Source of the DNA: Pacificibacter marinus
GTDB lineage: Bacteria > Pseudomonadota > Alphaproteobacteria > Rhodobacterales > Rhodobacteraceae
DNA: 64,000 bases
Direction: 5' to 3'
Assembly: GCF_900109555.1 (NCBI RefSeq)
Contig: NZ_FNZV01000002.1
Span: forward strand, 248,001-312,000
Of the stretch, positions 7,592-29,285 are shown in pieces. The notes beneath the pieces are model-generated. The model did not search any database. It was not told the origin of the DNA and worked only from the letters and a program-made list of their open reading frames with translations. Within the stretch, counting starts at the first letter, position 1, and every line of letters starts with the position of its first letter. A program made the position numbers and the translations under genes.

Positions 7592-8356
7592 TTAGTCTTT
7601 CGCGGCCATGATCTCAAGAAGCGGCGCGTCGTTTAACCCATTGTTGATCGCAAGTGTGAAGATCGCGATGGCAATCGCCCAGCTGAACGAGGCCAAAGTG
7701 CCGATGATCACGTATTCTGCTTTCTCGTTTTTTGATGCTGCATCAAAGCGCAAAACCGATTTCGCCGCGATCAAAAAGCCTATGCCTGCGGGTTGTCCAG
7801 CGAGGAACATCAAAAATATCAACCCACGTTCCAATATGCCAATCATCATGCCGCCCTTGGGCAAGCTTTCGGTTGGCGCGCCTGCCGCAAAGGGTGTCAT
7901 CAATTTACCCACAGCAAAGCCGCCCGCGCGGGTGGTGTAGATGGCCCCTGCGGTGAGCAACATCATCTTGGGTGCCCAAGCGCTGATGTCCAACAGGCCG
8001 CCTTGGGCCAAATCTTTGGTCCAAATACCATCTGCCCAAAGGGTGGGGGCCACAGCTGCGATGGCGGCGATGGTGATGAAATGTGCCACTTGGTCGGCCA
8101 AATAGGGTTTGATCCCATCATCGTCACGGGTTTTGACCCAGAGGACTTTCAAAGCGTCTATGGCAAGGTGCAGCCCAGCAAGGACAGCGATTTGCCACGC
8201 GATAGACCCCAGAGCGACAACGGCACAAAGATAAACCGTTATTGTGTGCAAGGCCATGGAGCCAAAACGGTCTTTAGTTTGAACCATCTTCGCGGTCTGA
8301 AACACGTAGTCTGCTAGGACGTGGGCGAAGAAGAGAGCGGACAGGGTTTCAAACAT
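7592..8356 (-). CDS. DUF3307 integral membrane protein
   Basis: A 254-residue polytopic membrane protein. The N-terminus FFAHVLADYVFQTAKMVQTK is the characteristic DUF3307 signature (His-Asp-Gln in the first helix, all facing the membrane interior). About six hydrophobic segments follow, with loops near residues 70-80 and 160-170. No biochemical function is established for the family. Its start overlaps the stop of the SatD-like gene by 8 bp, so translation of the two is probably coupled, and the pair should be treated as one functional module. Confidence 0.85.
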   Translation of the reverse strand: MFETLSALFFAHVLADYVFQTAKMVQTKDRFGSMALHTITVYLCAVVALGSIAWQIAVLAGLHLAIDALKVLWVKTRDDDGIKPYLADQVAHFITIAAIAAVAPTLWADGIWTKDLAQGGLLDISAWAPKMMLLTAGAIYTTRAGGFAVGKLMTPFAAGAPTESLPKGGMMIGILERGLIFLMFLAGQPAGIGFLIAAKSVLRFDAASKNEKAEYVIIGTLASFSWAIAIAIFTLAINNGLNDAPLLEIMAAKD

Positions 8357-8996
8357 TGGTGGCTTTCATTTCCATAAGTAAGAGAGCTTCGTTTATATGT
8401 TCATATCCCGCCGATTTTAAAGTTTTTGACACAGTTTGGCGTGACTTTTTTAGGGCGTCAGCTAGATCGGAAATTATAAATCCTGAAGTGGGGGAGCTTA
8501 GATATTTGTACATGGTTGCGGCCTGAACCGAGGTCCAGCTTTCAATAATTAAATCATAAAGTAATGCAAATGGTTCGCTTGGATGACTGCGTGTAAAATG
8601 CATGCGGCCTATGCATTTTCCTTTTTTTATGAATTCTAATTCTTGGCCCGATATGATGAAAACGCCTGCCGTTTCTTTGTTGAGGTCGGTGCTGATTTCT
8701 TTTGAGGCTTTGCCGTCAGCGATCCCAATGTAAGTATCAAATTCTTTTCCAAGCGACTTTAGGCAAGAACGAAATAGAATGGCAGACCGCAGTGCATATT
8801 TTGGCTCGGCCAGTGCGACTTGCCAGCCGTCGCCGCGATGGCGGGTAAAGTGCAGGCTCTTACCCATCCACTCGGCTTGCATTTCGGCGCAGTCACGCAA
8901 GGCGTCGAACGCCCGTTCGAGTTTTTCAGGGCCCAGCGCGGTGGAGCCGACGATATCGCCGGTTAAAACGGCTATTATGCGTGTTTTATGAGTCAT
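8349..8996 (-). CDS. SatD-like protein: cyclase-like domain plus HTH
   Basis: A 215-residue protein. The N-terminal part has the motifs of the SatD family: AVLTGDIVGST (residues 10-19), HRGDGWQ (53-59), YIGIADG (89-95) and FIISGQ (113-118). By eye Asp14 and Asp56 sit in contexts resembling the metal-binding aspartates of class III nucleotidyl cyclases (D-I-V-G-S-T and G-D-G); activity is unproven. The C-terminus, ISDLADALKKSRQTVSKTLK (175-194), is a clear helix-turn-helix. The second half is richer in A+T than its neighbours, which could indicate transfer. Its ATG lies three bases from the first of five phased palindromes at 9000-9137. Downstream it overlaps the DUF3307 gene. Confidence 0.8.
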   Translation of the reverse strand: MTHKTRIIAVLTGDIVGSTALGPEKLERAFDALRDCAEMQAEWMGKSLHFTRHRGDGWQVALAEPKYALRSAILFRSCLKSLGKEFDTYIGIADGKASKEISTDLNKETAGVFIISGQELEFIKKGKCIGRMHFTRSHPSEPFALLYDLIIESWTSVQAATMYKYLSSPTSGFIISDLADALKKSRQTVSKTLKSAGYEHINEALLLMEMKATNV

Positions 8997-8999
8997 GAT

Positions 9000-9137
9000 G
9001 CATCCAATATAGGGTGCGTTTGTTTATATGCAATCTAAATAGGCTGCGTTTTGTATTTCGCAATCTAAATAGGCTGCGTTTTGTATTTCGCATCCTAAAT
9101 GGATTGCATATGTGTGTTTGCACCCTAATTAGGCTGC
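9000..9137. repeat. five 18-bp palindromes at exact 30-bp spacing
   Basis: Five imperfect palindromes of 18 bp start at 9000, 9030, 9060, 9090 and 9120: GCATCCAATATAGGGTGC, GCAATCTAAATAGGCTGC (twice), GCATCCTAAATGGATTGC and GCACCCTAATTAGGCTGC. The half-site consensus is about GCAnYCTAA. Every spacer is 12 bp and T-rich on the plus strand; units 2 and 3 are identical through the spacer. The period of 30 bp is about three helical turns, so all sites face the same side of the DNA. The array lies directly upstream of the SatD-like gene; the first unit covers its ribosome-binding region and TATAAA (9022-9027, minus strand) lies in the first spacer. The HTH of that protein is the natural candidate binder. 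Confidence 0.85.
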
Positions 9138-9183
9138 GCGTAAGTCTGAGCGCAGTTCAAGCCAAAGCATATAGCAGGGGTAG

Positions 9184-9210
9184 AAAAACAAAAACGGCCC
9201 CGAAGGACCG
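9184..9210 (-). terminator. terminator of sufT
   Basis: Read on the minus strand: CGGTCC-TTCG-GGGCCG (9210 to 9195), a 6-bp stem with one G-T pair and a stable TTCG tetraloop, followed by TTTTTGTTTTT. A classic rho-independent terminator after the sufT-like gene. It also shields the palindrome array from read-through. Confidence 0.85.
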
Positions 9211-9244
9211 CTTTAAATCTTAATTGAGCCGTAAGACCGAGCGC

Positions 9245-9607
9245 TTACATAAAGCCCAGTTCAAGACGCGCTTCATCAGACATCATTTCCATGCCCCATG
9301 GAGGTTCCCACGCCAAATCGACGTCAACTTGTTTAACGCCGGGCAACGGTTCAATCGCATCGGCAACCCAGCCAGGCATTTCACCTGCCACAGGACAGCC
9401 CGGCGCGGTGAGTGACATGATCACATGCACCGCGTTTTCTTCGTTGATGTCGATGGTGTAGATCAGCCCGAGATCATAGATGTTGACCGGAATCTCTGGA
9501 TCATACACAGACCTGCAAGCTTCGACGATAGCTTCGTGAAGCGGATGGTCAGTGCTGGAAGGTTTGATCAGCGGTGTGCCTTCTACGGGGGCGTCTGAGT
9601 CTGTCAT
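9245..9607 (-). CDS. sufT: SUF-associated Fe-S assembly protein (DUF59)
   Basis: A 120-residue MIP18/DUF59 protein (CRSVYDPEIPVNIYDLGLIY; MSLTAPGCPVAGEMP). Family members help mature Fe-S proteins, and the cysteine in TAPGCP is the conserved one. It fits with the A-type carrier gene at 7197-7568. It has its own terminator and is divergent from the YciI gene. The symbol is given by family resemblance. Confidence 0.85.
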   Translation of the reverse strand: MTDSDAPVEGTPLIKPSSTDHPLHEAIVEACRSVYDPEIPVNIYDLGLIYTIDINEENAVHVIMSLTAPGCPVAGEMPGWVADAIEPLPGVKQVDVDLAWEPPWGMEMMSDEARLELGFM

Positions 9608-9732
9608 AGCGTTCCTCGTGTAAACTTGACCAAAGATATAGGGTTTGACTGAGGCAAGGTCCAGTCCCCGACTTGGCCTTTTGTCATTGCAAGGGTATCC
9701 AAGGTTAAAATAATGCGCAAAGGGTCGCTTAT

Positions 9733-28915: not shown

Positions 28916-29006
28916 GGGACGATTGCGCTCGCAGAGTGTTGATGCACTGTTAGTGATTTTGCCCGCCGATGTATCGCACATTCGCTGTCATCAAAAAGCG
29001 CTGTCG

Positions 29007-29285
29007 TCAAAAAGCGTCAATTTCGGGGACTGTGCCGTGTCTGGCTAAAAATGTAGGCAGGCCGACTTCGCCAGAATTGGGATCTTCGACAACCATATAA
29101 GCGTCCGCGCCGACGCAGTTTTCAGATCGGCATTCGCGCTCTGCACGTTCTTCTGCGGCTGAGGCTGTGGAGTATTGGATTTGTTTGCCAATCTGCAAGC
29201 TGGCTTGCTGAGCGTTGCCGCTTTTCTTTTCGATATACGTTTGGCAGATGTAATGCGTTTTGGGTGTTTCTTTTGAGTCGGGCAT
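29007..29285 (-). CDS. hypothetical protein, 92 aa
   Basis: A 92-residue soluble protein with an AGGA sequence eight bases before its ATG. It has four cysteines, an Ala/Glu-rich helical middle (SAAEERAERECRSE) and a C-terminal AYMVVEDPNSGEVG. I recognise no family. It lies alone between eutE and the divergent phosphatase gene. Confidence 0.65.
   Translation of the reverse strand: MPDSKETPKTHYICQTYIEKKSGNAQQASLQIGKQIQYSTASAAEERAERECRSENCVGADAYMVVEDPNSGEVGLPTFLARHGTVPEIDAF

Follow-up and report, generated by a model that had tools for sequence, protein, structure and literature searches.

A phased palindrome array before a SatD-like gene of Pacificibacter marinus looks like part of a widespread self-regulating system

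In Pacificibacter marinus, the gene for a SatD-like protein is immediately preceded by a series of palindromes that follow each other at a constant distance. Such an arrangement raises the questions of which protein reads the palindromes and why there are so many of them at such a regular period. The stretch of DNA that was analysed, 64,000 nucleotides in length, is referred to as the window in the following. As read directly from the sequence, it contains five 18-bp palindromes with a start-to-start distance of exactly 30 bp (Table 1), and both this period and the 12-bp T-rich spacers between the palindromes are present as the initial annotation of this DNA had described them. The same annotation had given the half-site as GCAnYCTAA. 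Half-sites are indeed conserved, but this wording is too strict and GCAnYCYAW comes nearer, with one half-site reading GCATCCAAT and another GCAATCCAT. TRF independently reported a 30-bp array at 9009-9100 (and, elsewhere in the window, a 16-bp unit repeated 2.1 times at 28983-29016 with a score of 61). Copies 2 and 3 of the array are identical over the whole 30-bp unit and therefore likely stem from one recent duplication. The array ends 3 bp from the SatD-like gene, such that the palindromes lie directly before its ATG (8994-8996) on the minus strand.

Table 1. Features of the array and its genetic environment in the window
Feature	Position	Strand	Sequence or basis
Operator 1 (promoter-proximal)	9000..9017	.	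GCATCCAATATAGGGTGC
Operator 2	9030..9047	.	GCAATCTAAATAGGCTGC
Operator 3	9060..9077	.	Same sequence as operator 2
Operator 4	9090..9107	.	GCATCCTAAATGGATTGC
Operator 5 (distal)	9120..9137	.	GCACCCTAATTAGGCTGC
SatD-like gene, 215 aa	8349..8996	-	Predicted cyclase-like domain (about residues 6-134) and C-terminal HTH (recognition helix from residue 186)
DUF3307 gene, 254 aa, predicted membrane protein	7592..8356	-	Pfam PF11750, E 4.7e-14; hydropathy
Intrinsic-terminator-like hairpin of the upstream SUF gene, separate from the array	9191..9214	-	Terminator scan
Upstream gene, SUF-system Fe-S assembly protein (SufT/DUF59-like), outside the system	9245..9607	-	TIGR02945 match

The DUF3307 gene overlaps the end of the SatD-like gene. 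In order to place this arrangement in context, 295 genomes of the same family were searched and 65 yielded a match, the window genome included (one locus, L028, was left out in favour of L071, which represents the same locus with a longer sequence). DUF3307 lies downstream of satD in 63 of these 65 loci, the remaining two stopping at contig ends, and 60 loci have a SufT-like Fe-S gene on the upstream side. In five Celeribacter and Pacificibacter loci (L095-L099), a LysR-like gene separates the array from the SufT-like gene, whereas satD is still directly adjoined by the array. The chromosomal place is the same in these five cases, with sufT about 1.2-1.4 kb upstream and an IscA-like gene downstream. 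The array therefore goes with satD and not with sufT, and the idea that it is a property of the upstream Fe-S gene was rejected because the array keeps to satD across the LysR-like insertion.

The persistence of the array with another gene directly upstream also bears on a reading in which the palindromes act in RNA, as hairpins or as intrinsic terminators of the gene upstream, instead of as DNA operators. Palindromes followed by T-rich spacers would suit it, as would the distal copy that directly follows the upstream stop codon in some relatives and a single terminator-like match at 8997-9020 on the plus strand. However, the upstream gene possesses a terminator-like hairpin of its own (Table 1), an Rfam match is absent from 8300-9700, and neither a fixed spacing of centres nor the match between HTH and half-sites described below would be expected for RNA. 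We consider this reading very improbable and have rejected it.

To what extent might an array of this kind arise by chance? Palindrome pairs were scored with a motif-free scan that evaluates the similarity among the four half-sites of two palindromes at spacings of 19-50. When 55 upstream regions in the window were compared, taken from script-called ORFs of at least 120 aa outside the annotation, the satD upstream region ranked first with a score of 29, the runner-up reaching 24. A pair score of 29 is also the top value among 193 coding stretches of related loci. Judged by palindromy alone (4 of 6 matches, constant spacing of 20-50), the array is the sole chain of five in the window, and 20 Markov windows yielded three such chains in total. 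Because the coding score ties and Markov windows also give chains of five, the argument has to rely on the identity of the half-sites and on related loci. Throughout the 3.87-Mb genome, the operator pattern is matched exactly only inside the array, at operators 2-5; operator 1 deviates from the search pattern by two mismatches and the best site outside the array by one. With up to three mismatches allowed, there are 117+126 sites, slightly more than the 93+90 obtained with the pattern in reverse. It is unlikely that a large regulon exists, because not a single exact site lies outside the array in this genome.

Across the family, two to five palindromes at distances of 28-30 bp precede the SatD-like gene in 59 of the 65 loci, with half-sites that are specific for the respective lineage. 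The motif-free scan placed the best palindrome-pair spacing at 28-30 bp in 57 of 65 cases (three ties), and the mean score was 29.8 compared with 20.6 for 195 shuffles and 22.1 for the 193 coding stretches. Spacings in the controls were widely spread, those of coding stretches peaking at multiples of three, for example 45 and 30. A chain search, for which the half-site classes were written after viewing the data, detected at least two operators in 58 of the 65 loci (two in 29, three in 22, four in five and five in two, the window locus having five). Among the 96 intervals, 28 bp occurred 10 times, 29 bp 65 times and 30 bp 21 times; distances of 27, 31 and 32 bp were permitted and never seen. 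Controls gave at least two operators in 3 of 650 shuffles drawn from the 65 upstream regions (two chains of two and one of three) and in 3 of 130 coding stretches. L069, with the half-site GCAAGG, is the 59th locus with an array. Six family loci lack one (L019, L030, L034, L044, L058, and L059), and a wider scan likewise found none there. Spacing, too, is specific for the lineage: within the half-site class of the window, 19 of 20 intervals among the 58 loci measure 30 bp. Six further relatives came from named or isolate records. Three Celeribacter and two Pacificibacter loci among them carry three or four operators, all exactly 30 bp apart. The sixth, L100, belongs to an uncultured Rhodobacteraceae bacterium; it is of the same half-site class, lies outside the 58 and has four operators with spacings of 29, 29 and 30 bp.

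The period also matters for the geometry of the array. The initial annotation had concluded that every site lies on one face of the helix, and in this wording the conclusion could not be confirmed. At 10.5 bp per turn, 30 bp correspond to 2.86 turns and thus to a drift of about -51 degrees per site, and the steps of 29 and 28 bp drift by -86 and -120 degrees, respectively. As none of the three distances equals a whole number of turns, placement on one face is doubtful, and dimers bound at such steps would therefore wind round the DNA, off a single face.

In arrays of at least three operators, consecutive copies are 83% identical in the half-sites as opposed to 43% in the spacers. Half-sites have thus been kept while spacers diverged, from which it follows that the sites are maintained and that the period is more than the result of mere copying. 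The same comparison disposes of a neutral tandem repeat, that is, a minisatellite with palindromes by chance. The array found by TRF and the one exactly duplicated unit might be taken in its favour, but palindromes are retained while spacers diverge, and half-sites vary by lineage while palindromy and spacing persist. With the comparative data contradicting it, the chance that this reading is correct is negligible, and it was rejected. What is found here, namely repeated palindromes upstream of the gene for their presumed binder and conserved in relatives, is the hallmark of an autoregulatory operator array.

The picture extends beyond the family. A set of 28 loci from other families includes Vibrio lentus, Pseudoalteromonas, Sphingomonas parapaucimobilis, an Agrobacterium plasmid, Segatella copri (Bacteroidota), and three haloarchaeal plasmids. 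Among spacings of 19-50 bp, the best one was 28 or 29 bp in 22 of the 28 loci (one tie). A pair at 28-30 bp reached p<=0.05 against shuffles in 22 of 28 loci, and in 14 of 28 when any spacing was counted. A rescan that also allowed odd-centred palindromes was applied to eight distant loci and to the six array-less loci of the family; among the distant loci it added L117 and L118 (29 bp each) and withdrew L120, resulting in 23 of 28 loci with an array. In L105 and L116, the scans found no array before the satD-like gene, and the signal in L094 and L103 is weak. The distant set contains close kin (L110/L111, L114/L115, L106/L108, L092/L093, L089/L101, and L087 with L102-L104), and when loci are grouped by kinship according to our own grouping, an array is present in 16 of 20 groups. 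The initial annotation had named a lack of phased repeats in related gene pairs as an outcome that would refute it. With arrays in 59 of the 65 loci of the family and in 23 of the 28 distant ones, this comparison did not refute the claim, and the constant period noted in the window extends to related pairs as one of 28, 29 or 30 bp. A class-wide search of 385 genomes retrieved full-length relatives in only three, all from the same family, and the other 12 matches were partial. Around four other families, satD was found in 2 of 118, 1 of 119, 3 of 119, and 4 of 119 genomes, and six of these ten loci were already in the set. No relatives were detected in the phage records searched. With nearly the same spacing before relatives in distant bacteria and archaea, the array looks like the signature of a widespread self-regulating system.

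What kind of protein is encoded directly behind the array? The window protein has neither a Pfam match to SatD (PF16264) nor any NCBIfam match, and only one of 64 family members matches PF16264, at E 0.004. When the 64-row family alignment (L068 was left out because its contig ends before the HTH) was compared by hhalign with ten SatD proteins, which were either past the Pfam cut-off or annotated as SatD, 194 columns were aligned with a probability of 99.1, and a bridging group of nine proteins links the window family and SatD with probabilities of 100 and 99.4. The designation 'SatD-like' in the initial annotation can thus be retained at the superfamily level. Like the SatD family, known from the sat operon of Streptococcus mutans, the window protein shows a full-length profile match, a cyclase-like part with GD...GD motifs and a C-terminal HTH, and a gene annotated as DUF3307 often adjoins in that family, as such a neighbouring gene for a membrane protein does here; it differs in falling below Pfam detection. 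Two papers tie SatD to acid tolerance and to secretion or protein translocation (PMC12077213, PMC10326533).

An AlphaFold2 model of the window protein (mean pLDDT 95.9) predicts a cyclase-like domain followed by the C-terminal HTH. Foldseek matched the N-terminal part best to the adenylyl cyclase Ma1120 (E 5e-5, 124 columns, TM-score 0.43 by query), and the C-terminal part resembles the HTH of solved MarR-type regulators in a profile search (best E 0.002). Class III nucleotide cyclases are characterized by two metal-binding aspartates and by transition-state asparagine and arginine residues. Both metal-binding positions, D14 and D56, are invariant in all 64 members of the family and align with those of the cyclase-like rows. 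Unlike Ma1120, the window protein is fused to an HTH, and in a low-identity alignment it has glutamine at the arginine position, where the family consensus has arginine. In the same low-identity alignment, the asparagine position is not asparagine in eight SatD-like rows and is asparagine in just two of seven cyclase-like comparison rows (an eighth came out nearly empty). The catalytic residues of a class III cyclase may not be kept in the window protein, and our guess would be a sensor that binds a nucleotide without turnover. A search for class III cyclases in the organism's own genome found none.

If the SatD-like protein reads the sites of the array, its recognition helix should vary in concert with the half-sites, and such a match is observed. 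The half-site begins with G at each of the 46 loci whose protein has Arg186, and with T or A at each of the 12 loci whose protein lacks it. This means that residue 186, the first of the recognition helix, tracks operator base 1 without exception in the 58 loci, the half-site of L069 having been entered manually. According to a tree built from the N-terminal domain, the match reflects about three independent changes, a number insufficient for a sign test. Lys191 coincides with C at position 5 in nine of nine cases, and one further locus has C5 without the lysine. Because the trait changes only about three times on the tree, the match falls short of proof; it constitutes strong circumstantial evidence from sequence comparison that the SatD-like protein would be the binder. 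The six family loci without an array have glutamine (five) or lysine (one) at residue 186. A clean rule does not emerge, because L057 (Gln186, with a half-site beginning with A) and L047 (Lys186) do carry arrays. In these six array-less relatives, all of which possess DUF3307, the DNA target may have been lost or changed. The initial proposal of an operator array for the SatD-like protein is thereby supported by comparison across relatives, and so is the view that it is more than a one-operator autorepressor, since two to five operators occur in 59 of 65 family loci. The filament or nucleoprotein scaffold that the same annotation had suggested may form along such evenly spaced sites.

The position of the operators relative to the start codon suggests how they may work. 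The centre of the proximal operator lies 8-13 bp upstream of the start codon in 39 of 58 loci; in the other 19, its distance from the ATG is 20-57 bp, and operator 1 is thus not always located at the start site. The central dinucleotide of the proximal operators in the 39 loci has T as its first base in 79% and A as its second in 85% of cases, compared with 44% and 41% for the distal operators. In the window, the centre of operator 1 contains a -10-like TATATT (9006-9011, minus strand), and TTGCAT (9028-9033, minus strand), which consists of the promoter-side half-site of operator 2 plus 2 bp, lies 16 bp from this box and could, as assigned by eye, serve as the -35 element. A strict promoter scan reported no sigma-70 promoter at the locus. 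Taken together, a -10 element appears to be built into operator 1.

We consider it probable that the array is an operator array of the SatD-like protein, on which dimers arranged side by side over the promoter repress the satD-DUF3307 pair. We infer the following course of events, from binding and dimerisation via cooperativity and repression to the ligand and the effector role of DUF3307. A SatD dimer would bind each 18-bp palindrome via its C-terminal HTH, and neighbouring dimers, 28-30 bp apart, would most likely touch, resulting in cooperative binding along the array, an assumption made because the spacing is constant. Operator 1 would cover the -10 and operator 2 the -35 region of the satD-DUF3307 promoter, from which transcription would start at or beside the ATG and give rise to a near-leaderless mRNA. 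Bound SatD would block RNA polymerase and the operon would be autorepressed, with the extra upstream operators making the response steeper. DNA binding may be switched by the N-terminal class III cyclase-like domain when it senses a nucleotide or a metal, and DUF3307 would be a membrane effector whose unscheduled expression must stay low. SatD could also activate rather than repress.

A simpler autorepressor would bind as independent dimers, its two promoter operators being set by the geometry of the -35 and -10 elements and any extra copies being tandem duplications without a cooperative role. Only two operators are present in 29 of 65 family loci, an operator 1 that has a -10-like centre and lies 8-13 bp upstream of the ATG (39 of 58) would bring operator 2 near -35, and in the window the 30-bp units of copies 2 and 3 duplicate each other exactly, all of which would fit. 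Nevertheless, the same spacing recurs at operators 3-5 and in arrays located further upstream, the period is kept although spacers are divergent (43% identity), and the spacing is found in haloarchaea, whose promoters differ in type from bacterial ones. We therefore regard independent dimers as rather unlikely and explain the period by contact between dimers, because promoter geometry leaves operators 3-5 and the further-upstream arrays unexplained.

For the contact between dimers that we favour, the nearest analogue in mechanism would be BldC of Streptomyces, a MerR-like protein of 68 residues that is reported to oligomerise along repeated promoter sites consisting of direct repeats (PMC5859096). 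The analogy ends there, since domain make-up and type of repeat are unrelated: here, palindromes are 28-30 bp apart, the protein has a sensor-like domain, and oligomerisation is proposed. MarR-type regulators such as AdcR and ZitR are similar in the HTH according to the profile search, but they are devoid of a cyclase-like domain. Such regulators usually have one or two operators.

The partner of SatD was also inspected. The structural model of DUF3307 is all-helical (mean pLDDT 92.4). In an alignment using 35 of 62 proteins, with 27 left out, His12, Gln20, His63, Asp88, and Gln89 are invariant in all 35 aligned relatives and mostly reside within predicted helices; by their conservation, these residues could be the site of a membrane enzyme. 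Foldseek searches with the model against PDB and viral models returned nothing at E 0.001. In the open-access literature searched, DUF3307 appears in a single paper, which deals with a jumbo phage.

A cyclase-like domain combined with a membrane partner brings to mind a nucleotide-gated filament or a toxin-antitoxin-like module, in which SatD would act both as repressor and as sensor for a harmful DUF3307 protein, possibly in phage defence or stress. This reading is compatible with the operator array and adds a function to it. Several observations are in line with it: the pair resides on plasmids of only 10.3 and 4.4 kb, it occurs beside Pycsar-type and TIR genes on one Sphingomonas plasmid, and phrog_2470, a family of phage proteins with a relationship to DUF3307, falls into the moron/host takeover class. 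Furthermore, satD of Streptococcus pyogenes is reported in one study as essential in the strains tested, yet accessory, being present in 178 of 249 genomes (PMC11323703). By analogy, an essential yet accessory satD would be expected of a gene that restrains a harmful neighbour, which we take as a hint; the streptococcal essentiality could also have other causes. PADLOC, on the other hand, did not match the satD-DUF3307 pair to any described anti-phage defence system, gave no match for DUF3307 and recognized in the SatD-like protein only an HTH match to Csa3 (E 0.021, residues 145-205), and the SufT-like gene upstream in 60 of 65 family loci speaks for a stable chromosomal place. On balance, a module of this type is possible though not likely. 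An even bolder version is speculative and, in our estimation, somewhat improbable: SatD-DUF3307 would be a two-gene control module, shared by Bacteria and Archaea, in which a cyclase-derived regulator that senses nucleotides polymerises by successive dimers along the array with its period of 28-30 bp, and the potentially harmful membrane effector stays off until a nucleotide signal, arising from stress or phage, dissolves the assembly.

No description of an operator array for SatD/DUF3307 was found in the open-access literature, and since most subscription journals lie outside the literature searched, its novelty falls short of proof. As matters stand, SatD and DUF3307, two families known mainly by name, would gain a testable mechanism: the sites, the protein that likely binds them and a first rule connecting the two at the sequence level are all readable from genomes of alphaproteobacteria, gammaproteobacteria, Bacteroidota, and haloarchaea. 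With a near-constant period and freely changing half-sites, these loci would form a natural experiment in which the limits set to operators by the geometry between dimers can be studied. That a cyclase-like sensor is paired with a membrane protein further suggests a new module of nucleotide signalling. The system could even provide a reason why streptococcal satD can be essential though accessory (PMC11323703).

Some information on the plasmid-borne copies may be added. An annotated DUF3307 gene is located downstream in 10 of 16 plasmid records; three further records have an unnamed gene at this place and three are without annotation. In the array-less L105, the Sphingomonas insulae plasmid (1-6627) carries the satD-like and DUF3307 genes beside genes for a Pycsar-type effector, an adenylate/guanylate cyclase and a TIR-domain protein, an environment resembling a defence island. 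The satD-DUF3307 pair is also found on plasmids of Pseudomonas fragi (L116, 10.3 kb), Enterobacter kobei (L117, 119.5 kb), and Klebsiella pneumoniae (L118, 4.4 kb, ColRNAI type), and it occupies more than one third of the last of these.
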